Assembly (NCBI RefSeq): GCF_963675165.1
Contig: NC_087386.1
Span: forward strand, 1,724,931 to 1,788,930
DNA length: 64,000 nt
Direction of reading: 5' to 3'
Origin: Halichondria panicea
Taxonomy: Eukaryota > Porifera > Demospongiae > Suberitida > Halichondriidae
Shown here one piece after another: positions 3,580 to 64,000 of this stretch. How positions within the stretch are numbered: the stretch's first letter is position 1; each line of letters opens with the position of its first letter. The position numbers and the translations under genes are program-made. Under the pieces are notes generated by a model. That model did no database searches and was not told the origin of the DNA. It saw only the letters and a list, made by a program, of their open reading frames with translations.

Positions 3580-6380
3580 ATGAAGAGCCCAGCCATCTAC
3601 TCACTACTGTGTTTGCTACTTCTCCATGCAGTTTACAGCCGTAAGTAATTTATACTATACAACTAAATGATTACTTCGACTGTTAACTTTTTATCTCCCT
3701 GCAGAGATCTCATTCATTGGTCCAGTAGAAACATTGGAGACATTACCAACAAGTTTGGGTGGCATACAGGCATTAACACTTCTTGATTTCAATTTGCTAC
3801 CATTGACTCTACATCAAGAGAATTATACCTCAACATGGACTCTACCTAATGGGGAAATGGTATCTATGGAAAATCAAAGTCCAAATAATAATATTTTAGT
3901 CATACAAGGACGAATTCCTATAAATGCTACTACAAATGGGCCAAGCACATCTCTACTGGTTCATGGCCTGTCCTACACTGATGCTGGTGTGTACAGATGT
4001 AGTGTACAGGACGACCGCAACCCAGGCTCTCCACCAATAGAAGGAACAATAGAGCTAAGGCTGACACGTAAGTATAATTAAGCCGGTACTAGCAGATCCC
4101 ATTAACATACTCATCTCTTACTATGCAGTAACACTAACGGCTATAAACTCAAGTGTGACAATATTGGACAATGCTTCATTTGTGGAACTAAGATGTGATA
4201 TGAGCAACTACATTCGACCTGACGATCAACTGCAATGGTTCAGAGATGGAGAAATGATAACTTCAGGAAAAGATAGACGACAGATCACTTTCATGAATGG
4301 AAATGCCAATCAAGGACAGTTTGGAGATCTTTCAACCCAATCATCGAGAGTTTCGATGCTCACAATCTCAAACCCTATTTTAAGTGATACTGGAACGTAC
4401 AATTGCCGTGTCATAGGGACCACAGAATCTGTTGATATTGAACTACTTGTTCAGAGCTCAGGTGAGAATAATTATATGCATATACTGTATGCTATAATTA
4501 TTGGGTAGCTGCCAATTTACGGGCAATTTCCATTCAATGTTAATATAAAGAGTACAATAGTTTGTAGGTAATTACGGATTTGCTACTAAATTAATAAGGA
4601 ACTCATTACCCATTTTCTATAAACAACTATAGCTACAAACCCTACAACACAAGGAATAACTTCGTCTACACCTGTTACAGAATCGACGTTTCCCCTCCCC
4701 GCCCTAATCGGAGGAATAGCTGGAATATTGGCACTCATTGTCCTCATACTCGTCATAGTAATCGTGGTGGTTAGTATAAAACGAAGAAAGATGGGAAAAC
4801 TACCGTCACATGTGAACGATTTCGAAGAGAACGGAGCGTATGCTTCAACGAGCAACGGAGGCTCTCACAACGGTAGCATGGCGATTATCCCAAACTACGC
4901 CAAGATAGACAAGTTCTCACCCCCTCCCCTCCCAGCACGACCATCCACAAACTTAAGTATGAGTGGTGCCAACTCCGTCAACTCGTTCGAACCAGACCCC
5001 CCAGATTACGCAACCCCAGACCTCCCACACAGAACAGAAAACTACGATCCCTACTATGACGACCCACAACAACTCAAAGCAGAAGCAAGCAAAAAGTTTT
5101 TCGCTCCTAGTCCGAGGAAAAGCACCTCCAAAAAAACATACTATGACGATGTGGATATAGTTGTTGGACCATCTTCGGTTCCTGATCCTAATCCATACGA
5201 TATGTCCACCGTTCCCTCGCCAGCTGACATTCTCAACGGCTCCATGCCTCGGATTAACACTGCTTCGAATCGCAGCCCCGATTTCTCGTACCCAATTTAC
5301 AATGCTGGTATCCCGATTTCAGATTTAAACACAGACCACGATTACGATCAAATCTACAGCGAGCCAATTGATCCCACTCTGATTAGAAGTGATTTTGAAT
5401 TTGATGCCGGTAGCCAGGAAGCAATCCCTTACAGTGCAATATACGAGGACCCCCTACCCTTGCAAGAGGGTGTGGCTCCGCTATTGGTCACCCATGATAA
5501 CATACAAGAAGTGAAAAATCTCGGAATGGGCCAGTTTGGAAATGTGATTCTTTCCAGAACCATTGGTCTCAGTTTGAAAGACATGAAGTTGAGCGAGACT
5601 GACAATGATCGAAACATCAGCATTCTAGTCGCTACTAAAAGGCTAAAGCTAAATCCGGAAAACGGTATGACGGAGAATTTCAACAAGGAGGTCAAGTTCA
5701 TGGCCAGGCTTATGCACGACAATGTCATTCGTCTTCTGGGGGTGTGTCATGGGGCGGAGTCTTTCATAATGATGGAGTACATGGAGAACGGAGATCTGAA
5801 TCAGTTTCTGCAGAAACAGCAACTGATGCCCGACACAATCAGTGGCTTGCAAGAAAATGAGGTCACTCCAATTATCCTCCTCTATATTGGAGTCCAGATA
5901 GCTAGCGGGATGCACTACCTTGCCTCACACCGATTCGTGCACCGTGATCTAGCCACCCGAAACTGTCTCGTGGGAAAAGACTTTGTCGTCAAGATTTCAG
6001 ATTTCGGAATGAGTCGAAGCCTCTACGAGTCCGCTTATTATCGAGTACAAGGCACTCTTGTATTGCCTATTCGATGGATGGCATGTGAAACCTTTTATGG
6101 AAAGTTCTCGGTGAAATCAGATGCTTGGGCTTTCGGAGTGGTGCTATGGGAGATATACACGCTAGGTAAAGTCGACCCATATGATCACATGACTGATGAG
6201 GAGGTTATCGCTGACGCTATTCGAGGTCCAGATCGAGTGCTGCCCATACAGTCAAAGAGATGCCCCCAAGAGGTGTATGACATCATGCTGCGTTGCTGGG
6301 TCCACGAACCATCGATGAGAGCTGATTTTGGGGAAATCTACTCAAGACTATTTATGATCTACACTAGACAGGCTTTATAA
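3580..6380 (+). CDS. Receptor tyrosine kinase with two Ig domains and a DDR-like kinase
   Basis: Exons are 3580-3640, 3705-4067, 4129-4461 and 4633-6380, all joined in phase 1, giving 834 aa. Residues 1-20 are a signal peptide. Two Ig-like domains follow (about 22-141 and 142-252), then a Thr/Ser stalk, a membrane helix near 276-302 and a basic stop-transfer (KRRK). The long juxtamembrane region carries tyrosines in YxxP contexts (YATP, YDDP, YSEP, YEDP). The kinase, about 542-830, looks active: GMGQFG loop, VATK lysine near 588, HRDLATRN, DFG, and an activation loop with the YxxxYY pattern. MENGDLNQFL, YYRVQG and LPIRWMA match the DDR class best, yet there is no discoidin domain. Geodia sponge receptors with two Ig domains and a kinase are the closest known architecture. 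Ligand unknown. Confidence 0.93.
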
Positions 6381-7084
6381 AAAGCACTCTACTCTGTAAT
6401 GAATTCTGTACTTTATCTATAGACAATTTGTGTTTTATACCTAAATATGATGTCTATGTACCTATTATCATTCGTCAGGCAAAATACCATTAACTATTAC
6501 GCAAATCATTTCTTATTACAAGCTGAGCAATTTCTTTGTGTAAAAAAGTTATAAAGTCATGTTATGTCCAAACAGCGTATCAATATGTAGCATGTTCTGT
6601 TCTTACGTGGGTGTGTTGATATGGTTACTTGGCATTGTTTCAGCAAATAACAGGTGCTAATAGAGGGCAAATACACGTATAGTGTTGGACTAGAAAGGTG
6701 CCCATTTATAGGGTGTCTAGGAAACACTGACAATAACCACACATATGCTCGTAAACTTGATTAGCAGCCAACTCCAGAATCAACATGCACCCTTATTTGT
6801 AAACAGAGCAGCCACAAAATGCCCTCAGGGGAAGGGACAACCCTCACAACAGGAAGTTTGTCACAAACATTCTGCATGCAATACTACAACAACTCAGTCT
6901 GTCCATAGATATCTATGGTCTGTCCAAGTAGCTAGCTAAGACAAAGTGGATTCAGTATCTCAATTGTGGATGCTCACTAAAACTTCTTTAGACTAAAGTT
7001 TAGTGATAGCAACTATACAAAATCTTAGCAGTACATTGTACAGACAATAGAACTTATCTACAACTAATTGTTCTATTATATACA
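6381..7084 (+). other. 3' UTR and short spacer between tandem receptor kinase genes
   Basis: AT-rich sequence with no convincing exon. The frame of the next gene is open upstream from 7004. A TACAG at 7039-7043 would be a phase-1 acceptor in that frame, so additional 5' exons cannot be excluded. Confidence 0.5.
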
Positions 7085-8935
7085 ATGTCAATATCGAATT
7101 CTTCACTGTTTGAAACAATGGCTCCCATGATGAGCAACAATGACTCTCCCCCCACTGATGACTCTTCTCCAATTTCTGTGATCATCGTCTCGGCCATTGT
7201 CGGAGGTCTAGCTCTGATTATTCTCATTTTATCTTCTATAGTAGTTCTCTGCTTTATAAGTCAAAGAAGCAAAGACGAAAAAAAAAGATCAGCCCGAATT
7301 GAGAATGGACAACCAGTTAGCAGGCCCACTGTTCAAGCAAAACCACTTTACGCTCAAATCTTTAGAAGCTCAACTGTGAGAAATTCGACCAAGGAACCAA
7401 AGACAAGAAAGAACTCTGTCAAAGTAACTATTGTGGAGGCCCCAAAACCATCCCCTGTCAAAGACGAACGTAACCATCCACAACCAGCAGAGATATCGGC
7501 ATTTGCAATAGACGTTCCCAAAACATTTCGACCATTTGCACCTCCGCCAAGAATTACACCATTCTCTCGAAGAGATGAGGAAACACAAATTTACGATATA
7601 CCAATTGCTGCACAACACGATTTCCTGGATTCAATCGATGGTGATGAGAATAGATTCACTCAAAGCTTGCAAATCCACTCAAACCCCGGCAACACCAACC
7701 AATACAAAATAGAAAACAGGCACTACTCACAGAGAAGCTCGTATAAAGAACCACGTATCACTGCTTCAATCCGAGAAGAACGTCTAACCTCCTCTCTCAG
7801 CGCCCATCAATTTCTTGGGAAGAATCGGTCCGTGAGCTATCAGAATGACTATCAACAACCACGATCAGTTACCCTACCCAGAGGGGGGAAACAAGAGGAC
7901 AGTCTGATCTACAGTGAGAGTTTGACCCCTTCGATGTTCAACCGTTCTGGAAGCGTTAAAAGCCGAGTGCAGGCTCTCCCATACCCACCTATATACGACA
8001 GGCCGAAACCTATTATGCAAAATGACCGACCCACTGATGTAACGAGGAGAAATATTGTTGAGATTCAAGACCTCGGAATGGGACGGTTTGGGCGAGTTGT
8101 TCTGGCAGCAACTACCGGACTGAGCCTACAGGATCTAAAGCTTGGACAGAACAACGACAAATGCAGGAGTCTACTAGTGGCTATTAAACAGTTAAGGGAG
8201 GATGCTGACGTGCAACTAAGAGAAGATTTTCAGAACGAGATCAAATTCATGTCTAAATTGAAGCATGCGAATGTGGCACGGTTGCTAGGAGTTTGTGCTT
8301 GTGATAAGAGTTTCTTAATGATGGAGTATATGGAGAAAGGAGATTTGCACGAGTTTTTACAGAAGCAGACGTTGGTATCTGATTCTATTGATGCTTTGGG
8401 TGAAGAAGAAGTTACCCCACTTGTTCTGTTGTACATGGGGGTGCAGATGGCCAGTGGAATGCGTTATCTTGCCAAGAACAAATTTGTACATCGTGATTTG
8501 GCCACTCGAAACTGTCTTGTTGGAAGAGATTTCATTGTAAAGATCTCCGATTTTGGTATGAGTCGAAACTTGTATGATACATCATACTACCTTGTTCAAG
8601 GGAGGATCATCCTTCCGATTCGATGGATGGCCTATGAATCATTTTATGGCAAGTTCTCCACGAGATCTGACGCTTGGTCCTTTGCCATCACATTGTGGGA
8701 GCTGTTCACAATGGCTAAACTAGATCCTTACTACGAGCTTTCCGACGAAGATTACATATCTGATACAATGAAAGGGGCTGGAAGAAAGGTTTTACAAAAG
8801 CCGGATATTTGTCCTAGAGATGTGTACGATGTAATGATGCGTTGCTGGATTCACGAGCCAAATATGAGGGCTGATTTTGAAGAGATATATTCTCGACTTT
8901 TCTTAACCTACACTACACTCAGCAAGCAGAACTAA
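7085..8935 (+). CDS. Ectodomain-poor receptor tyrosine kinase, DDR-like kinase
   Basis: A single open frame of 616 aa starting at the first in-frame ATG. Only about 28 mostly polar residues precede the membrane helix (about 30-58, rich in I, V and L), and no signal peptide is visible. The cytoplasmic linker has tyrosines in YDIP, YSES, YDRP and YAQI contexts. The kinase, about 325-612, keeps GMGRFG, the VAIK lysine near 367, HRDLATRN, DFG and YxxxYY, so it should be active. It is a close paralogue of the kinase ending 705 nt upstream (shared MMEYME, GDL, VQG, LPIRWMA, FYGKFS, EIYSRL). Either this is a real membrane-anchored kinase without ligand domain, or unseen upstream exons, possibly those of the neighbour, supply the ectodomain. 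Confidence 0.9.
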   Translation: MSISNSSLFETMAPMMSNNDSPPTDDSSPISVIIVSAIVGGLALIILILSSIVVLCFISQRSKDEKKRSARIENGQPVSRPTVQAKPLYAQIFRSSTVRNSTKEPKTRKNSVKVTIVEAPKPSPVKDERNHPQPAEISAFAIDVPKTFRPFAPPPRITPFSRRDEETQIYDIPIAAQHDFLDSIDGDENRFTQSLQIHSNPGNTNQYKIENRHYSQRSSYKEPRITASIREERLTSSLSAHQFLGKNRSVSYQNDYQQPRSVTLPRGGKQEDSLIYSESLTPSMFNRSGSVKSRVQALPYPPIYDRPKPIMQNDRPTDVTRRNIVEIQDLGMGRFGRVVLAATTGLSLQDLKLGQNNDKCRSLLVAIKQLREDADVQLREDFQNEIKFMSKLKHANVARLLGVCACDKSFLMMEYMEKGDLHEFLQKQTLVSDSIDALGEEEVTPLVLLYMGVQMASGMRYLAKNKFVHRDLATRNCLVGRDFIVKISDFGMSRNLYDTSYYLVQGRIILPIRWMAYESFYGKFSTRSDAWSFAITLWELFTMAKLDPYYELSDEDYISDTMKGAGRKVLQKPDICPRDVYDVMMRCWIHEPNMRADFEEIYSRLFLTYTTLSKQN

Positions 8936-29783: not shown

Positions 29784-32700
29784 CTAGGCCTGCATTTTCT
29801 TGGCAGCCTCAGCAATGAATCGTGAGATGACAATTCGCTGGGTCTGGGACGTACCCTCGTAGATCTGGGGGTGAAAGTACAGAGGTTAATAATACCAAGC
29901 TAGGCACACACAGCAAACATTCACGATACTATAGCTAGCTGCTAAGTTATATATACCATTATAGGAAATTATGGCCCGTTACAAATTTGAGAGTTGAGCA
30001 TACCATCTGAACGGGGTTTTTCTAAGCTTTCAGAAAAAATCAGAAAATTGTTGGATTTGGACTATCAGAACTCTAGTTACAGAGCCGATTCTAGCTCTTT
30101 CAAAATTAAGGGGACGTAACTACATGTACACTGTACACAGGGGCATATCACACGATACGTGTGGCTAGCTATATACACATCACAATAGATACTAACGAAC
30201 ACTAGCTGTATACTGACCATGAATATCTTGGCATCTCTCATGAGCTTCTCCACGGGGTACTCTCTGTTGTACCCGTTCCCTCCAAATATCTGCACAGGGA
30301 AGTGTGTATGTGAACAACGCACCACACAGAATATGCACATAACATTTAATCAGCCAATATTCACAAGGCACTAGAGACACTGTACTGTAGACAGAAATAC
30401 ACAAATATGATTCCCACAGAACACAAAACAAGACACTTTGATAAACAGTTTCCTAGCATTGAAAGGTTTGATAAATATAAATATCTGGGCCACAAGAAGG
30501 GTGGTTGTGTCAATGGAGTGGGCACTGGGTTGTGATGGCAACACCAGTTACACAACACACTGCACATCAAGGCACTTCAACATCACCAACTAATACAATG
30601 TAGCTACTACGTACGTATACCACATTGTGTGTGACTGATCCATTAGATACGTACTTTAAAGGGCTACCAAATGGATGTTTTAGATAGTCTGGTACTCGAT
30701 CGTAACTCAAGTTATGAGGACTACAAGTTAGCCATAAAAACACGCTCATTTCGAAAACGCATCAAGATTAGGCCATACCTTTTCTTCAAGAATGAAACTT
30801 TCATTCCAAAAGCTATCACTGATCTAAACACATCATTAGATACGTACTTCAAAGGGCTACCAAATGGATGTTTTAATTAGTCTGGTACTCGATCGTAACT
30901 CAAGTTATGAGGACTACAAGTTAGCAATCAAAACAGGCTAGTCTCACATCAGCCCCGATGAAAAATTGAGCAAAACAAAATAGGAATCCTTCAAAGTTGG
31001 CATCGTTGTTAGCATCAATAGCCAAAGAAAACGTAGTGTTTTCAAAGCTAATTAACGCATCATGCTGGAGCACTGCAGTGCATGTGAACACTCGTTAATA
31101 CGATACTTACGATACTCTAAAGCCTCAAAAATAGACGCACACACTCACCTGTACAGCATCAGCAGCTGACTTATTGGCCACCTCGGATGCGTAGGCCTTG
31201 GCAATGGAGGCGTAGTAAGTGTTCCTTCGTCCCTCGTCAATCTCCAGGGCAGACTTATACGTTATGAGCCGAGAAGTTTCTAGGCCGATTGCCATGTCAG
31301 CAAGCATGAATCCCACGGCTTGATGGTTGATAATGGGCGTGTCAAAAGTTTTACGCTCGAGTGAATATTTAGTGGATTCATCCAATGCCCTCTTAGCCAA
31401 CCCCACCGCTCCTGCCGCTACCTGTGTGGGTGTGTGAGGCGTGGGGGTGGGGGGAGGGGCTATGTGTATGGAACCAAGATACATACAGTGCGTGGGCTAC
31501 CAGAACTCTATTGAAAATTATTATAGGCACACGTACGATAAAATTATATTCAAATTCTGTACCATTATGACTATATGTTTTTAGTGAAGTGTGCAATATA
31601 CACAATGTGTGCATCACTAGTTACCCCGGGGCGTGTCCTGTCGAAGGCAGCCATTGCATAGAGGAAGCCCTTCCCTGGCTCACCAAGTACATTCTGTAGT
31701 AGGAGAGGGAGATACGGTAAAGATCAACACATTTACTTATCATAGAATGCTCTAAATAGTGAATGCTATATACACCACTTACAACCTCAAGATAGTGTAG
31801 TTGGGGTATAGTAGCATCCACTCCTTACGCCCCCTCCACACACACACACACGCCCCCTCACCTCTTGTGGTACCACGACGTCCTCGAAAGTAACACCGAC
31901 CGTGTTGGATGCCCGCTGTCCCATCATCCATTCCTTACGCCCTGGAGTCACTCCCGGCAAGTCAGCGTCCACAATGAACCCAGTGAAGGCCTGGCTGGCA
32001 GGTACACCAGCCTCAGCTGTCCTGGCCAGCACAAAGTACCTGTGCACGGAGGGGGGTATCACATATACAGTATAGCGGGTAAATTTGGCGATTTGGCGAA
32101 TCAAGGTACATGAGGGTTACCAAACTTAAAAATCGCCAATGTTTTTAGCTTGATACTCAGTCCCATTATATTGCACAAGTTAATACAATGCCATACTGCC
32201 CCATATAGTATGATAGAATAGCCAATAATACTTTAATCGCCTCATTAGTTAAAATTTACCCGCTATACGGTATATTGTGTAGTTCAAACATCAGAGATAA
32301 GATCAACGGGATTAGTGTGTGGGTGTGTACTCACGTACCAGTTAGCCACTCCTCCATTGGTGATCCACATCTTGTTGCCATTGATCACCCACTGCAGGGG
32401 GTTGTGTGTGTAGGGGGCAGTGTGTGCAGGGGGTAGTGTGTGCAGGGGGCAGTGTGTGCAGGGGGCAGTGTGTGCAGGGGGTAGTGTACAGGGGGTAGAG
32501 TGTGCAGGGGGTAGTGTGTGTGCAGGGGGCGGTGTGTGCAGGGGGTAGAGAAGTATACTATAGCAAGCCGTGTAAAAAATTGGCTTTCTTAAGGGAGCAC
32601 AAACCACTTTTTGTAAGAAACTACTACTTCTAAGAATTACAACGACTCCTAGTGCTCACAAGGAGTCGTTAAGGATTATAATGTGACATATCCTCAAACA

Positions 32701-54498: not shown

Positions 54499-55730
54499 TT
54501 ACCGAGTAGCCAACATTTGTTCGACTAGAGAGTTCTCGCTATTAGTGCTTGAGGGGCGTGGCATTTGGTGTGGCGGTAACGGGTTCCTCTCTGTTTCTTC
54601 GTCCAATTTACAATACGATCCCACTCGACTTTCGGCCGCAAAGTGGCCAGGTGTGAGTTCGTTGTTGACGTGCACCTGTACTTGTACGTGAGGTAGGTAG
54701 AGTTGCTGGTTGGGTTTGAAAGTAGAGCAGTTTAAAGTCGGTGTATGTGTCGACATTGGTCTCAAGCTGCCCTTGCTAAACCATAGACCAAGCTTACTAC
54801 TGCGTCGATCTAAACTGTCTGTATAATTCTTCGCCGATTTGTGCCTTATAACGACGTCAGTTCTATTCACAATACTCATTTGGTGACCACTGATGCTTGA
54901 ATGCGACGAGCCACTGCTATTGGTCCGTTCGAGGTTACATAATGACACTCTCTCGCTGTCCCGTCTTCTCCTCCTTACTTTCTTTCTTCGCTGCCTCCCT
55001 CTTAGACAGAGCATGTACAACAGTAGTGTGATGATCACTAGGCAGAGGGTAGCCCCCACACTAGCTATGATTATGATATAGAATAATGGTAGCAGTAGTT
55101 CCTTTTCTTGAGCTGCTGTAGTTGTGACGTCCGTTGTAAAAATGGCTACTGTAGGGGGCATTGTTGATACGTTAGCAAACGACGATACTAGGGTTATACT
55201 TGTTACTGATAGTGTTGTTGATACAGTTAATGGCGTTGTTGTAGTGTTCATAGGTTCTTGTGAGATTAACTTTGTTTGATAAGTAGACAATCCTTGAGGC
55301 GTACTTGTATCACTCGTGTACACTGATGTTGGTCTTATTACCATAGTGGAGTTCATGGTAGCCTTGCCCAAAGGTGCTTGAGATGTAGCTTTAGTTACTG
55401 ATAAATCTACCGAACTCCGTGTAATTGTTCCTGTGGTAGACACTGTATTATAAGAAGAAGTCTCACTTGGGTTCCTCGTGAAGCCTTGTGTGTTTTCAGC
55501 TGTACTAGCCTTTGATGTTGGAGTCATAGTAGTCACAGGGCTAACATCTGTGCATGTACTATATGTAGTAACAGTAGCTGTATTGTATGTCTGTGTGTAA
55601 AATAAGCATTAAACACTCATGCAGGTATTATTTTATTGAACTGGCTATGTTTTGTGTAACTCACTGTGTTCTGTCCTTGAGCATATTGGATACTTAGTAG
55701 CACAGCCACAAACAAGTGTGTTCTTGGCAT
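54499..55730 (-). CDS. Mucin-like single-pass membrane protein
   Basis: Two exons, 55665-55730 and 54499-55590, joined in phase 0, give 385 aa. Exon 1 is a signal peptide (MPRTHLFVAVLLSIQYAQG). The ectodomain (about 23-185) is dominated by Thr and Ser and contains one cysteine, so it is likely heavily O-glycosylated. A membrane helix follows (about 187-217), then a strongly basic stretch (RRKKVRRRRR) and a Ser-rich tail of about 165 aa with an NYTDSLD tyrosine site. No enzymatic or binding domain recognised. It lies head-to-head with the membrane gene at 56738. Confidence 0.82.
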
Positions 55731-56120: not shown

Positions 56121-56249
56121 CTAGAGTCGGCTCTGTAACAAGAGTTCTGGTGATCAAAATTCAACGCTTTTATGATTTTCTGAAAGCTTATAAGGAGCTT
56201 ATCAGATGGTATGCTCAATTCTCAAATTTGGAACGGGCCACAATTTCCC
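56121..56249 (-). repeat. Dispersed repeat, copy 2
   Basis: Reverse-complement relative of 29964-30092, about 129 nt with scattered substitutions, indicating an old interspersed family. Confidence 0.75.
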
Positions 56250-56266
56250 ATTTTCGGAAATGACCA

Positions 56267-56737: not shown

Positions 56738-57577
56738 ATGGATATTATTGTAGTCAGTGCTGTCGCAGTTGGGGTAGTGCTAACTCTAATTCTACTAGTT
56801 ACTATTGCTATTGCTGTTGTCCTGGCAATGTACAACCATCGGCAGAAGAATTCCTTCGATATAGTCCAAAGAGAAGATTTTCCACTCAGCTATGGTGTTA
56901 TGAGAGATGGTACAAATGAGTATGATGATGCAACTTCGATAATGAATAAGATGCATGAAGAGAAAGACCGGGAATCCAATGTGGAAGTGGAAAATGAATT
57001 CTGTATCAAGAACATGTCAACTGGACAGAGCCATACGAGCGGTTACGAAGATGCAAGTACTGAGCTAACTTCCACATTCCAAGTGAATGTCTCCCTGGAA
57101 ACTGAAGAGCCTCCAGTCATTGATAAAACAACAGCCAGCCCTGTGAAATCGCTCAAATCGAAACCCCTCGCCCCTCCAAAACCTTGCAAACCACCCCCCA
57201 CAACTGATGAGAGTCACGTTTATGTTAATAGTGCTTCAGTCATTGATAAAACAACAGCCAGCCCTGAGAAATCGCTCAAATGGAAACCCCCTGCCCCTCC
57301 AAAACCATGCAAACCACCCCCCACAACTGATGACAGTCACATTTATGTTAATAGCGCTCCAGTTATTGATAAAACAACAGCCAGCCCTGAGAAATCGCTC
57401 AAATCGAAACCCCCTGCCCCTCCAAAACCATGCAAACCATCCCCCACGACTGATGAGAGTCACATTTATGTTAATAGCGAAGCAATGCACACAGTCGTGC
57501 AAAACAGTCCCAAACGACCTCCCAAACCCCCCAAACCACCCAAACCATCCAAACCCAGTGCAGCTGTCTTACACTGA
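56738..57577 (+). CDS. Membrane-anchored proline-rich scaffold with three SH3/SH2-ligand repeats
   Basis: A 279-aa single-exon frame. The membrane helix starts almost at the ATG (residues about 3-31), so there is no ectodomain unless 5' exons are missing. The tail carries three 41-residue repeats (123 nt each, 57116-57484), each with PPAPPKPCKPP (SH3-ligand type) and YVNS (Y-x-N, the GRB2 SH2 consensus). A lysine/proline C-terminus (RPPKPPKPPKPSKPS) follows. Other tyrosines sit in SGYEDAS and LSYGVM. By motif logic it would recruit GRB2- or NCK-like adaptors to the membrane after phosphorylation. Neighbours on both sides are also single-pass membrane genes. No homologous family recognised. 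Confidence 0.8.
   Translation: MDIIVVSAVAVGVVLTLILLVTIAIAVVLAMYNHRQKNSFDIVQREDFPLSYGVMRDGTNEYDDATSIMNKMHEEKDRESNVEVENEFCIKNMSTGQSHTSGYEDASTELTSTFQVNVSLETEEPPVIDKTTASPVKSLKSKPLAPPKPCKPPPTTDESHVYVNSASVIDKTTASPEKSLKWKPPAPPKPCKPPPTTDDSHIYVNSAPVIDKTTASPEKSLKSKPPAPPKPCKPSPTTDESHIYVNSEAMHTVVQNSPKRPPKPPKPPKPSKPSAAVLH
57116..57484 (+). repeat. Three in-frame 123-nt coding repeats
   Basis: Units start at 57116, 57239 and 57362. Differences among them are few and mostly conservative, so the duplication is recent or homogenised. Confidence 0.95.
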
Positions 57578-58630
<1,053 letters not shown>

Positions 58631-59389
58631 ATGGAGAAACATTCGAGCATCATCCAGGCCGAAGCCGTTGCCGTGATAGTAGGTCTCATCCTTCTCGCAC
58701 TGGTCATCACAATCGTTATCCTTCTAGTGATTATCTACATAACGAAGCAAAAGATGAAAGAGAGATCACAATTTACAATCCACGTCTCTCGCAACTTCAA
58801 GAACTCGTTTCGAGACAAAGAGACTCCAGTAAGTGATTACGACAGACAATCTCTCAACAATCGACCATTCGATGTGCCAGATCCTCTGACTGAGAGTTTG
58901 GACAATCCACTATACCAGCACACCACCTCATTCACAGGTGCTACTAACGAAGTAGCTATAGCTAGTGCTACTAATGAAGTAGCTACAGCTGGTATTACTA
59001 ATCCACGCAACGAGCAAGGCAACTCTGCTGGTAGTGACGTCTCCATTCCAAGTTTGAAAGAAGTAACTGATTCCGGATCCGTATCGAAACAAGACCTGAC
59101 AGGAAATGATTACCAGGTACCACTACCATCATCTCCTGCCAAACCTGTTGCCCTCCCACGAGGATCAGCCCAACTCGTATCCCCTCGAAGACCCCCTCCC
59201 ATGCTGCCAGTAATAATTAAACCAAAGCCGTACAATGGTTCGTCTGTAAATAAACCACCAGTTCCTGGGAAACCCACAATAGCAACGAAGCCGTCCAAAC
59301 AGCCAGTTCTACCCCCCATTGGGAGACCCCCTGTGGAGAATAAGCCCAATGTCAAACCAAAGCCTAAAGCCTTGCCTCGAAAAATCTAA
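58631..59389 (+). CDS. Single-pass membrane protein with NPxY and proline-rich tail
   Basis: 252 aa from the ATG at 58631. A short polar N-terminus is followed by a long hydrophobic helix (about 10-37) and a basic stop (KQKMKERS). The tail has NPLYQ (NPxY, PTB-domain type), an acidic-neutral linker with an ATNEVA duplication, YQVPLP, and a Pro-rich end (PPVPGKPTIA, QPVLPPIGRPPV, KALPRKI). The exon starts at an acceptor that allows phase 1, the phase used by all Ig exons nearby, so upstream ectodomain exons are possible, though none was found before the (TG)n tract. The 3' coding and flanking sequence is homologous to decayed sequence after the two next copies, showing shared ancestry with the array downstream. 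Confidence 0.78.
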   Translation: MEKHSSIIQAEAVAVIVGLILLALVITIVILLVIIYITKQKMKERSQFTIHVSRNFKNSFRDKETPVSDYDRQSLNNRPFDVPDPLTESLDNPLYQHTTSFTGATNEVAIASATNEVATAGITNPRNEQGNSAGSDVSIPSLKEVTDSGSVSKQDLTGNDYQVPLPSSPAKPVALPRGSAQLVSPRRPPPMLPVIIKPKPYNGSSVNKPPVPGKPTIATKPSKQPVLPPIGRPPVENKPNVKPKPKALPRKI

Positions 59390-59759
59390 CTATCAAACTT
59401 GCGAACATGTTACAATAACATTCTGTATAGTATCTAGTAGCTAAGTTTTTAGAAGTTATGAGAATTGAGCAAACAGAGATTTGATATTAATTTTGTGAGT
59501 TTGTCAAACATTGTGTAAAGTTGTCAAATTAGTGAGGCAGATAATTATGTAAAATGTAAATTATAGCTATCTACCTCAGTACATGCATTGCTGACGTAAA
59601 TCATTCAATTTGTCAATTTGTCAATTCATGCGTACTTTCTATTTTGCATGTCCCATATTGTTTATCTATAATTATAAAAATTCCACTCCCTCTATACCCG
59701 CCTCTCATATACACATGCATGCGCACATTACTAATTCATAATTATGCTGAAGTTGGACT
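59390..59759 (+). other. 3' UTR and spacer of the first array member
   Basis: Related to 60961-61150 and 63300-63560: shared TCGAAATATC, ACAATAACAT, and GCATGTCCCAT blocks. This marks the boundaries of tandem duplication units. Confidence 0.55.
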
Positions 59760-59782
59760 AACAAACTCTAACTGAACAATCG

Positions 59783-60284
59783 CAGAAGGGACAGCCCCTC
59801 TCACTACACCACCCCTCTCACTACACCACCCCCTCCCACTACACCACCCCTTCTCACTACACCACCCCCTCTCACTACACTTACACCACCCCTCTCACTA
59901 CACCACCCCCTCCCACTACACCACCCCTCTCACTACACCACCCCCTCTCACTACACCACCCCCTCTCACTACACCACCCCTCTCACTACACCACCCCTCT
60001 CACTATACCTACACCACCCCTCTCACTACACCACCCCTCTCACTACACCACCCCCTCTCACTACACCACCCCTCCCACTACACCACCCCCTCTCACTACA
60101 CCACCCCTCTCACTACACCACCCCCTCTCACTACACCTACACCACCCCTCTCACTACACCACCCCCTCTCACTACACCACCCCTCTCACTACACCACCCC
60201 CTCCCACTACACCACCCCTCTCACTACACCACCCCTCTCACTACACCACCCCCTCTCACTACACCACCCCCTCTCACTACACTA
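59783..60284 (+). repeat. Thr/Pro minisatellite in the receptor stalk
   Basis: About 28 units of CCCCTCTCACTACACCA type, 17 or 18 nt each depending on the number of C residues, with occasional TACACC insertions. In one frame it reads [10 protein letters not shown]. Because 17-nt units shift frame, the reading frame drifts along the array, but none of the frames appears to gain a stop inside the unit. Confidence 0.92.
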
Positions 60285-60823
60285 CCTGTGACTACTTCTA
60301 ATAATGTTTTGCTACCAACAGTGCATGGATTAGTATCCGTAGTAACTATCCTAGTGATTGTATTACTTCTCCTCATTATCTTCATCGTTTACCTACTGAG
60401 GAATAAGATTAGCAAGATAATACATGTCTTAATATGCTCGACTGAAGCTGTACAAGTACCTAATTCTCTCTCCATACAAGAAAGGGAAGACACCTCAATT
60501 TCTGTACAGGATGTGATATATGAAGATATCGCTGAAAGACGCGACATGTTATTGACAAAGAACGAAGCCTACATGTGTGTGTCGACTTCTAGAAAAATAG
60601 ACAGCCAAAAAATTTACCTTTTACTGAGCAGACCTTTAACATTATCCTGGACTAAATTTGTCGATGTCTTTGTTTACTATTGTATGTATCATTGCTTCGT
60701 ATACGGAAATTTGTTGTGCATTTGTTACATTTACCCTGACACTTTAATTTGTCTATATAGCATTGTGCAACAGCATTTTGAGTTGCTTAGAAATCTCTAT
60801 CAATCTGGGAAATCAATGCTGTT

Positions 60824-60957
60824 TAATAAGCCACCTGTTCTTGGGAAACCCACAATAGGCAGCAATAGAGACGTCCAACAGTTTTACCTCCCTTTGGGAG
60901 ATCCCCTGTGGAGAGTAAGCCCAATGTTAAACCAAAGCCTTGCCTCGAAATATCTCA
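60824..60957 (+). pseudogene. Relic of the proline-rich tail, copy A
   Basis: AATAAGCCACCTGTTCTTGG to CTTGCCTCGAAATATCTCAC aligns with 59247-59390, the coding end of the gene at 58631, with indels that break the frame. Confidence 0.75.
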
Positions 60958-61211
60958 CTATCGGACTTTTCTTGGTATAGCGAAAATGTTATAATAACAT
61001 CCTGTTGTAAACTTCTCACTGTTGACGTCCCTTTGTCCAGATCACTCGATATTCAATATGTCATGCAATTCATAAGTATACCTTCCACTAATAATTCCAT
61101 TCTGCATGTCCCATTCTATAATGAGTATAGCTCTACTTTTAAGTAATACCTCCTCTTGTACTTAGCTAAAGTTGATCTAACAAACTAGCTCTTGTCTTTA
61201 AATGAACAATC

Positions 61212-62960
61212 ATGATTCTATTTCTAACTGCTCTGCTCATCAGTGGCTATTGTGATGCTCTCACTTGTACTCAAACAGGTAACTATAAGTTTAAGTAGCA
61301 TCGAATTATTTTCATACTGTATTCCAACCAATTAGTCCTTCCTACACTGTATCGAGGTCTGTGGTTAGATGGTGATCCTATTACATACAACGATATTCTG
61401 ATCACCTATCCATCAAATTGTACACGGCCAAACGTTCTTGTTAGATTCAGTGTTTGTGAATACAGTGTTGCACTGGGTGACGGGCAATCATTCCATCTCC
61501 TCCTGATCTCAATAGTGCAAGTTATTTCAGACATTTCATTGCTTGGAACAGAGACTCATTGAATAGTTTTATTGACTTTGACCTCACTACAGCAATGGCT
61601 GGGATTACTGCTATAGAGCTCAGTTTCTTGAACAGTCCTGCCAATGGAATCAGTTTACCAGAACCTAGACTATTTGTTATTGAATATGCCCCAGGCTATA
61701 GAGATCGAAACGAAACAAGTATTTCAACCTGGATATTTGATAATCAAGATCTGGCTCAGACAGACAACCAAATCAGAACTATTAGCATTCAGCCATTCCC
61801 ACCACTTAGTGCTACGAACCTCAGAATTAGGTTCCAATTCACAGTGCTTCATGATTTTGATTGGGTCTTTCTGAGTGAAATACGATTTTGCACACAGCCT
61901 CAACCTCCTTTTCAACTTATCAAGGCTGTCATCCTTCAAACACCATCACATATTATTGTTCAGCCGAGCGCAGACGATTTGAGAAGAGGATCAACAGAGT
62001 TAATGTGCACTATTTCCAGTGGAGGTTTGTACACATGGCAGTGGAAGAGCGATAAAAATACAATAGAAATAGAAAAGAAAGGCCACTACACAGTCACCAT
62101 TGGAGACGGAAGTAGAACAACTAAGTTGAGGATAAACAAACTGGACTTCAGTAATGCTGCTAATTATGAATGTATAGCAACAACAACACACGATGTGGAT
62201 TTAAAGAACTCAACAACGTATTTAGTGGAGTTTCCAGGTACGTAAGTATCATACTCACATACTCACCTATTACTGTCCATCCTTTCTAGAGCATGTCGTT
62301 TCCACATCTGGTGTGTGTGGATATCGACACACAGAAGAGGTTACCTTGACCTGTGAACTCCATGGTTACCAGTCATCACTCTCTCCTCCTGTGTGGCTAA
62401 ACACAAATGGCAGTGAAATAACCACCACTACAAAATCAAAATACACCATCACTTCTGGTGAAGGGTTGAACGTAATTGTCTCTGAGAATGGAATTACTAA
62501 CCCGAGTGTGATTGTCATGCTTAGAATTCGAGATCTATCGTTAGCTGATGGAGGTACCTACACGTGTCGTGGTGTCAGAGGAGGGAAAGGTGTCACTCAC
62601 CTTGCCATTTTAGAAGGAATAGCCCCTCCCAGTACACCACCTTTGACCTCGTTAGCACTCAGTAATGTTTTGCTACCTATAGTGTACGGATTAGTATCTA
62701 TAGTAACTCTCCTAGTGATTGCATTACTTCTCCTCATTATCTTCATCGTTTACCTACTGAGGAAGATCAACAAAACAAAGAATTCCTTAATACGCTCGAC
62801 TGAAGCTTTACAAGTACCTAATTCTCTCTCCATACAAGAAAGGGAAGACACCTCAATTTCTGTGCAGGATGTAATATATGAAGAGATTTCCGAAAGACGC
62901 GTCGTGTCATTGACAAAGAATGAAGCCTACGTATGTGTGTCGACTCCTCTAGAAAAATAG
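61212..62960 (+). CDS. Two-Ig receptor with ITIM-like tail; carries a 1-nt frameshift
   Basis: Exons 61212-61278 (signal peptide MILFLTALLISGYCDA), 61336-62237 and 62290-62960. Exon 2 is 902 nt where 903 would keep phase 1-1. Compared with the copy at 63603, one base is missing near 61481-61484, and the frame then meets TGA at 61558-61560. Past that point everything is open. Order: a beta-rich domain of about 185 aa that I do not recognise (possibly galactose-binding-like: LRIRFQFTVLHDFDWVFLSE), an Ig domain (NAANYEC), a second Ig domain (GGTYTCRG), a Pro/Thr stalk, a membrane helix, then a 58-aa tail. The tail has VIYEEI, matching the ITIM consensus, and NEAYVCV 13 residues later. The tail stops at LEK; a decayed proline-rich relic follows. 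The frameshift may be real or an assembly error. Confidence 0.8.
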
Positions 62961-63602
62961 ACAACCAAAAAGTAACTTTTTTTACTTCGTCAATGTGTCT
63001 GTGTTTACTATAGTTTGCATTTATGCAAATCCATTTACCCTTAGACTTTATAGCTGTAAACACCCTGTGTGTTACGTTGTGTGTGTGTATGCACGTACAA
63101 TTGTAGTTTCATTTGAGTTGCTTACAGAAATTCTAGAATGCTGTTAATAAACTACCTGTTCCTGGGAAACCCACAATAGCGACGAAGACGTCCAAATAGC
63201 CAGTTCTACCCCCTGTTAGGAAATCCCCTGTGCATGGAGATTAAGCCCAATGTCATCCCAAAGCCTTTCCTTGCCTCGAAATATATAAGTTGCTTGGTAT
63301 AGCAAACACTTGTTACTCCTTTGAGGTAATGTGATATGTATAGTAGCTAAAAGTTTCCATGCAGAAGAGATCTCATTCATGTACACTGATATTTGTTTTT
63401 AGTTGACGTTATTAGTTCAGTACACGTTGACATCCCATGTGCAGGTCATTCGATTGTCATTTGTCACTCCATTATCTGTCCCATATTTGCTTATCTAATG
63501 TTAGTTCCACCTCATTCTATATCCACCTCTTCTATGTACATGTAGGTCTACATAGCTAATTTGCAAAAGTTGGACTAACAAACTATTGTCTCTTGAACAA
63601 TC
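62961..63602 (+). other. 3' region of the receptor and leader of the next copy
   Basis: Holds a decayed proline-rich tail (63145-63290), then sequence shared with the spacer after the other array members. It ends with the conserved leader AAGTTGGACTAACAAACTAT ... GAACAATC directly before the next ATG. Confidence 0.6.
63145..63290 (+). pseudogene. Relic of the proline-rich tail, copy B
   Basis: AATAAACTACCTGTTCCTGG to CTTGCCTCGAAATATATAAG aligns with 59247-59390. In-frame stops and indels are present (for example CCAAATAGCC for CCAAACAGCC), so it is not coding. Confidence 0.75.
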
Positions 63603-64000
63603 ATGATTCTATTTCTAACTGCTCTGCTCATCAGTGGCTATTGTGATGCTCTCACTTGTAATCAAACTGGTAAGCTTAAGCAGACATTTGAAGACTTATT
63701 TTCATGTTATATTTCAACCGATTAGCCCTTCCTACACTGTATCGAGGTCTGTGGTTAGATGGTGATCCAATTGCATACAACGATGTTCTGATCACCTATC
63801 CATCAAATTGTACACAGCCTAACATTCTTGCTAGATTCACTGTCTGTGATTACAGTGTTGTACTGGGTGATGGAGCAATCATTCCATCTCCTCCTGATCT
63901 CAATAGCTCGAGTTATTTCAGACACTTCATTACTTGGAACAGAGACTCATTGAATAGTTTTATTGACTTTGACCTCACTACAGCAACGGCTGGGATTACT
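63603..64000 (+). CDS. Third copy of the two-Ig receptor, truncated by the window end
   Basis: Exon 1 63603-63669 encodes the same signal peptide. Exon 2 begins at 63726 after CGATTAG and is open to the window end. It encodes the first part of the unrecognised domain (ALPTLYRGLWLDGDPI, SPPDLNSSSYFRHFITW). Unlike the copy at 61212 it has the extra base in GGTGATGGAGCAATC and keeps its frame. Ig domains, membrane helix and tail would lie beyond the window. Confidence 0.8.

Follow-up and report, generated by a model that had tools for sequence, protein, structure and literature searches.

A tandem receptor array in the sponge Halichondria panicea with one ectodomain design on short tyrosine-motif tails and on DDR-class kinases: a candidate paired-receptor cluster

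Vertebrate paired receptors such as LILR, KIR and the FcR-like proteins place a shared ectodomain on opposed signalling ends, and occur in tandem arrays together with chimeras and pseudogenes. Among invertebrate receptors of the immunoglobulin superfamily (IgSF), the Alr family of Hydractinia comprises 41 genes (PMC11999971), and the fester co-receptors (FcoR) of Botryllus have tails with an immunoreceptor tyrosine-based inhibitory motif (ITIM), a hem-immunoreceptor tyrosine-based activation motif (hemITAM) or a core YxxI/L/V, motifs that are also present on Hydractinia candidates (PMC12065747). According to the same source, a review, the proteins proposed for allorecognition in sponges, cnidarians and ascidians are neither conserved nor related to mammalian immune proteins (PMC12065747). 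The sponge Geodia cydonium has a receptor tyrosine kinase with immunoglobulin (Ig) domains (Schaecke 1994, as cited in PMC12018476), and one survey's table places the emergence of the DDR kinase class in the Bilateria (PMC8662651). Here we analyse a tandem array of IgSF receptors in the sponge Halichondria panicea, entered through a window of 64,000 nucleotides (C10:1724931-1788930, where C10 is contig NC_087386.1; positions without a contig name are window positions) of a 131.5-Mb, 39-contig assembly that represents one haplotype.

The 64-kb window breaks off within the array. We read 180 kb from C10:1784001 onward, placing units by domain queries and then by gene models from a splice-aware alignment written for this analysis. 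The array has 36 short-tailed receptors (S units) at C10:1785-1872 kb, one of them inverted, each built from a leader, a first domain (D1), two Ig domains, a stalk, a transmembrane (TM) helix and a tail with tyrosines. Eight further copies of the leader-D1-Ig-Ig ectodomain lie at C10:1911-1940 kb, where they are fused to DDR-class receptor tyrosine kinases (K units). An earlier note on the window had proposed a tandem IgSF array of at least three copies whose tails fit the ITIM consensus; that proposal is borne out, and the array is much larger than first noted. By analogy of layout, the array resembles a paired-receptor system in its anatomy, and we incline towards reading it as a paired-receptor-type recognition cluster, in which one ectodomain design is offered on two alternative signalling ends. 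The Ig fold of the intact short copy S13 is recognised by Pfam Ig_3 in two stretches (2.4e-12). D1 matches the DDR DS-like family (PF21114) weakly and in one of eight members only (E 0.07-0.14), and its predicted fold model is of low confidence.

The evidence for a shared ectodomain comes from trees and from chimeric copies. In a quick tree of D1, the ectodomain of K1 groups inside the short copies S10, S15, S16, S27 and S29 (SH-aLRT 100). The kinase label requires six changes on this tree, against a mean of 7.5 when labels are shuffled, and the well-supported branches alone force two of them. Grouping the eight kinase ectodomains as a single clade is rejected by the approximately unbiased (AU) test (p-AU = 5e-7 for D1, 2e-8 for D1 with the first Ig domain), a rejection driven by K1, and the same ectodomain lineage is thus found on both signalling ends. 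At the DNA level we compared three pairs. S21 and K8 are 86% identical over an unbroken 1,701 columns that reach the middle of the TM segment; S26 and S21 are 82% identical in the ectodomain and 83% in the tail, with no match in between, from the stalk to halfway through the TM segment; and S10 against K5 gives a similar picture. In addition, 15 of the 36 short copies fit best to a chimeric template (type B) with a kinase-receptor-like front as far as mid-TM. By these comparisons and template fits, one class of short receptors combines a short tail with a front like that of the kinase receptors.

In the kinase units, the shared ectodomain is followed by a TM segment, a juxtamembrane region rich in NPxY, and a tyrosine kinase; the main catalytic motifs, HRDLA.RN, DFGMSR and VAVKK, are present in all eight models. 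The kinase domain of K8 is DDR-class by sequence comparison with solved structures (DDR2, 4e-84; DDR1, 4e-80; the EGFR entry 9p9u, 9e-73; TrkB, 7e-68). When the genome was searched with this domain and the best 133 of 1028 first-look candidates were scored, at least 14 matches were better than 1e-80, all of them at 1.70-1.94 Mb on C10, and the next-best match outside this cluster was at 2.6e-49 on C9. Adding K4, which matches in two pieces, gives at least 15 close kinase genes, two of which lie within the window. One is represented by open reading frames (ORFs) at 3671..6377 (+) that encode Ig-Ig-TM-tyrosine kinase, with the second Ig domain and the kinase above the Pfam cut-off and the first Ig domain just below it; its kinase, at C10:1730417, matches that of K8 at E = 2.7e-100. 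The other is a TM-tyrosine kinase ORF at 7010..8932 (+), in which Pfam matched no ectodomain domain and whose kinase (C10:1732978) matches at E = 2.8e-97.

Relatives of both forms are also found outside the array. Upstream on C10 there are short forms at approximately 1666, 1676 and 1680 kb, a kinase form at 1711 kb and, at 1699 and 1705 kb, D1-like kinase receptors that are more distantly related; two further short forms lie on C6 and at C10:197 kb. The upstream relatives and these two were read from open frames, with exons assigned by position. Taken together, the short and kinase relatives have the look of a single neighbourhood of DDR-class receptors. Its upstream part also contains two adjoining ORFs, at C10:1670299-1671453, that by eye resemble an integrase-type transposase.

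In the tail of the short receptors, constraint falls on the tyrosine motifs. Numbering from the first tyrosine as position 0, the tyrosine is present in 35 of the 36 tails (S35 has a stop there), all 36 have E at +1, I at +3 and N-E-A-Y at +14 to +17, and 34 have YEEI; synonymous changes are seen at +3, +14, +15 and +17. The ratio of nonsynonymous to synonymous differences (pN/pS) over the 36 copies is 0.04 for YEEI and 0.07 for NEAYVCV, against 1.23 for the spacer and 0.86 for the upstream part of the tail, values that are descriptive because the copies are not independent, given duplication and conversion. The same elements recur in relatives. A divergent paralogue at C10:1668 kb, whose tail is 48% identical, keeps VTYEEIAER, NESYV and the spacing of 17 (none of 2000 shuffles was as good), and the C6 paralogue, its TM-tail exon assigned by position, keeps YEVI and a tyrosine at +17 (1 of 2000 shuffles as good). 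The C6 copy reads DDYEVI, with D at -2, so the -2 residue of the ITIM is not conserved across the wider family. On this evidence, the deepest-conserved part of the tail is pY-E-x-I plus the second tyrosine, and not the full ITIM consensus.

Candidate readers of both kinds are encoded in the genome, as judged by profile and sequence matches. On the minus strand of C3, two SH2 matches and a phosphatase match follow one another in that order, and the piece matches PTPN11/SHP2 at 4e-58; an SH2-kinase on C2 matches Frk (6e-37) and Src (7e-36). On ligand, phosphorylation, SH2 partner, direction of signal and biological role we infer the following, as the most likely mechanism. A common or similar ligand would cluster the receptors and activate the kinase forms; short forms engaged alongside them would be phosphorylated on tyrosine by the kinase forms or by Src-family kinases; and the phosphorylated short tails would recruit SH2 proteins and so modulate the kinase forms. 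Recruitment of SHP2 would make the short forms inhibitory, and recruitment of a Src-family kinase would make them co-activating.

The first of these outcomes corresponds to the ITIM-like tails of the earlier note. If the short forms are inhibitory ITIM receptors, SHP2 bound through V-x-Y-E-E-I would damp the kinase forms, a possibility that we would back only tentatively. The consensus [VILS]xYxx[VIL] is fitted by 32 of the 36 tails, with V at -2 in 33, and the low pN/pS at the tyrosine motifs and the SHP2-type gene agree with it; moreover, the ITIM-pattern matches past residue 480 in the eight kinase copies all fall, by reading, in the kinase domain and none in the juxtamembrane region. However, the tails that depart from the consensus include, besides S35 with its stop, S04, S20 and S32, which have A at -2; the C6 paralogue has D at this position and yet retains Y-E-x-I; and SHP ligands do not usually have glutamate at +1. 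YEEI is, in addition, the textbook ligand of Src-family SH2 domains, so the inhibitory outcome is not the only one that these tails allow. The tails might instead be activating or co-receptor tails. A Src-family kinase would then be recruited by pYEEI, and the short forms would strengthen the signal of the kinase forms; we regard this as possible rather than probable. It would account for YEEI in 34 of the 36 tails and for Y-E-x-I in both aligned paralogues, and it agrees with the Src-type SH2-kinase in the genome and with YYEEI in the juxtamembrane regions of K3, K5, K7 and K8. The V at -2 in 33 of the 36 tails speaks for ITIM readers instead, although it may reflect common descent.

Several results weigh against a paired-receptor-type cluster. 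A clade of the seven kinase ectodomains without K1 is not rejected (p-AU = 0.10 for D1, 0.09 for D1 with the first Ig domain), and firm exchange between the endings is therefore limited to one lineage and the chimeras. That both forms bind the same ligand would follow from their sequence sharing only; the copies behind the tail pN/pS values are not independent; the ectodomain gives no firm signal of diversifying selection, either by domain or in sliding windows; and 25 of the 36 short copies are not intact, so the array could be decaying. Intact models, defined by the lack of a frameshift or stop over nearly the whole template, number 11 of 36 for the short units and 5 of 8 for the kinase units (K1, K2, K3, K5 and K8); S01 is open but extends only from stalk to tail and was not counted. 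A decaying expansion, in which the short receptors are kinase-less by-products of a receptor tyrosine kinase cluster and decoys at most, would explain the disrupted or truncated copies, among them all three in the window. It is nevertheless improbable, given the pN/pS of 0.04 and 0.07 at the tyrosine motifs against values near 1 beside them, the retention of the motifs in a paralogue with 48% tail identity, and the 11 intact short copies.

The array also contains near-identical duplicated blocks, of 6.6 kb at 97.6% and 4.4 kb at 97.4%, and a 2.8-kb block that is inverted at 95%; these could in part be assembly artefacts. The amino-acid identity among the 16 intact ectodomains is 65-89%, with a median of 78%, a divergence that an assembly artefact would hardly produce. 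One unit, S04 (C10:1791-1793 kb), is a hybrid of two duplicated blocks and carries two sets of both Ig domains.

We calculated ratios of nonsynonymous to synonymous substitution rates (dN/dS, NG86) for four sets: 33 of the 36 short copies (S01, S25 and S35 were dropped), the 11 intact short copies, 22 other short copies and the eight kinase copies. The ratios by domain are 0.46-0.69 in D1 and in the first and second Ig domains. In sliding windows over 41 copies, numbered by the residues of S13, dN/dS is 0.7-1.2 in the two D1 stretches that vary most (residues 49-66 and 133-156), 1.9-2.4 at residues 169-186, where the proportion of synonymous differences (pS) is only about 0.05, 1.0-1.3 at residues 295-318 of the first Ig domain, and 1.2 at residues 343-354, where pS is 0.02. 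As the windows carry no significance test and recombination is evident, we do not claim diversifying selection. Residues 49-66 and 133-156 would be the first place to look for candidate ligand-contact stretches.

These results bear on whether the array is a polymorphic self/non-self (allorecognition) locus that functions like Hydractinia Alr or Botryllus fuhc, a comparison with Alr that the earlier note had drawn. A large tandem IgSF array, turnover of copies by block duplication, disrupted copies and variable stretches in D1 would all fit such a locus, and tyrosine motifs of this class have been reported from receptors of Botryllus and Hydractinia (PMC12065747). We consider it unlikely, as there is no firm signal of diversifying selection and as innate immune, symbiont-sensing or collagen/matrix receptors fit the same pattern. 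The likeness to Alr stands as far as an IgSF array with tyrosine motifs goes; the family sits with a DDR-class kinase cluster, and we did not file it as canonical Hydractinia Alr.

The end of the window, at 59.5-64.0 kb, contains three copies of one receptor design, S01, S02 and S03, all on the plus strand. The copies expected at about 59760, 61212 and 63603 are all present, S01 as a remnant that lacks an ectodomain. S02 has three exons separated by two short phase-1 introns: exon 1 (61212..61278) encodes the leader MILFLTALLISGYCDALTC; exon 2 (61336..62237) encodes D1 and the first Ig domain; and exon 3 (62290..62960) encodes the second Ig domain, stalk, TM helix, two-tyrosine tail and stop. 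Its VIYEEI (62871..62888) fits the ITIM consensus, and its second tyrosine motif is NEAYVCV (62919..62939). The tail motifs VIYE[DE]I and NEAY[VM]CV were thus correctly recognised from the start, with a tyrosine-to-tyrosine distance of 17 residues and not the 13 first given. S03 (63603..64000 in the window) has exon 1 at 63603-63669 and the start of exon 2 from 63726, and its model runs on to C10:1790414. In S01, a 5' flank (59551..59781, by local alignments) that is homologous to those of S02 and S03 stops exactly at the position of their ATG and is joined to an expanded stalk of 27 copies of an 18-bp PT-rich unit (59795..60286, Tandem Repeats Finder); the copy has no leader, no D1 and neither Ig domain, and the splice-aware model covers stalk end, TM helix and tail (60228..60587), with VIYEDI at 60513..60530 and the second tyrosine codon at 60570-60572.

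Leader, stalk, helix and tail had been described as common to these copies. S02 and S03 are 88.0% identical over 457 bp of leader and D1 region, and S01 and S02 are 85.5% identical over 352 bp of stalk end, TM helix and tail, both far above chance; no pair within the window shows all four parts. All three copies are damaged in this assembly, because S02 has lost one base near 61485 in D1, which shifts the frame, the frame of S03 is shifted within the second Ig domain, beyond the window edge, and S01 has lost its ectodomain. The small disabling changes may be assembly error.

The array had also been taken to start at 58631. The ORF there (58631..59389, +; ORF call and local alignments) encodes a TM segment and a proline-rich tail without an ectodomain, and is not an Ig receptor. 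Its 3' end recurs in decayed form behind 22 of the 36 short receptors (E <= 1e-3), including S01 (60825..61005, +; 75.6% identity over 193 aligned columns) and S02 (63141..63288, +; 84% over 150 aligned columns), and the repeat unit thus carries the fossil of another tail. Directly upstream of this ORF, a (TG)n microsatellite extends over more than 500 bp (approximately 58020-58594).

Other features of the neighbourhood are noted here as separate observations. An ORF at 56750-57577 (+) encodes a TM segment without an ectodomain, three repeats that hold YVNS, and PAPPKPCKP proline-rich stretches; YVNS is a pYxN, Grb2-type motif, and the ORF, which had no Pfam match above the cut-off, looks like a transmembrane adaptor adjoining the receptor cluster. 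The serine/threonine-rich ORF at 54502-55608 (-), likewise with no Pfam match above the cut-off, has a single TM-like segment and, after it, a basic stretch. An inverted repeat pair (29961-30094 and 56121-56251; 82% identical, 26 kb apart) is possibly a small mobile element. Genome searches gave at least 176 tyrosine-phosphatase matches (best 150 of 361 candidates), mostly on C4 among the matches listed and with several tandem groups, and 10 Wnt-profile matches, which group into about four loci; a Cys-loop ligand-binding-domain profile had no match in the genome search, an absence that is not proof. Both the Wnt and the Cys-loop results are in keeping with a sponge.

We found no report of this cluster in the literature titles and abstract openings searched, with most subscription papers outside reach. 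Among described systems, the Geodia cydonium receptor is alike in having Ig-like domains outside and a tyrosine kinase inside, a comparison drawn from its description. We know of no tandem short-tailed partners of that receptor. DDR1 carries an NPxY juxtamembrane motif, and NPxY motifs are found in the same region here; with DDR1 and DDR2 as the nearest solved structures to the K8 kinase, the likeness extends to the kinase itself, whereas the array differs from both in the two Ig domains that separate D1 from the membrane, and in its tandem relatives without a kinase. The cluster is relevant, too, to the question of when the DDR kinase class arose, given that this genome is non-bilaterian. Hydractinia Alr is likewise an invertebrate IgSF receptor complex with tyrosine motifs, and differs from the D1-Ig-Ig array here with its kinase-bearing counterpart in a DDR-class cluster. 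To our knowledge, no Alr report describes such a kinase cluster. Botryllus FcoR are also invertebrate IgSF receptors in one locus, with ITIM, hemITAM or core YxxI/L/V tails; unlike the receptors here, they contain a sushi domain and act as partners of fester proteins, and the accessible text describes no kinase forms (PMC12065747). It is doubtful, if conceivable, that the array serves recognition, possibly histocompatibility, in an early-branching animal whose paired receptors were made independently of vertebrate ITAM/ITIM pairing, by placing one variable ectodomain either on a receptor tyrosine kinase or on an SH2-docking tail. The array offers a concrete locus at which recognition of self/non-self or of microbes could be tested in such an animal. 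With vertebrate paired receptors, the array has in common an ectodomain lineage on different signalling ends, tandem arrangement, chimeras and pseudogenes; it differs in its counterpart arm, which is formed by a receptor tyrosine kinase in cis and not by a receptor coupled to an ITAM adaptor. If our reading of a paired-receptor-type cluster is true, a DDR-class receptor tyrosine kinase can serve as the base for paired-receptor logic.

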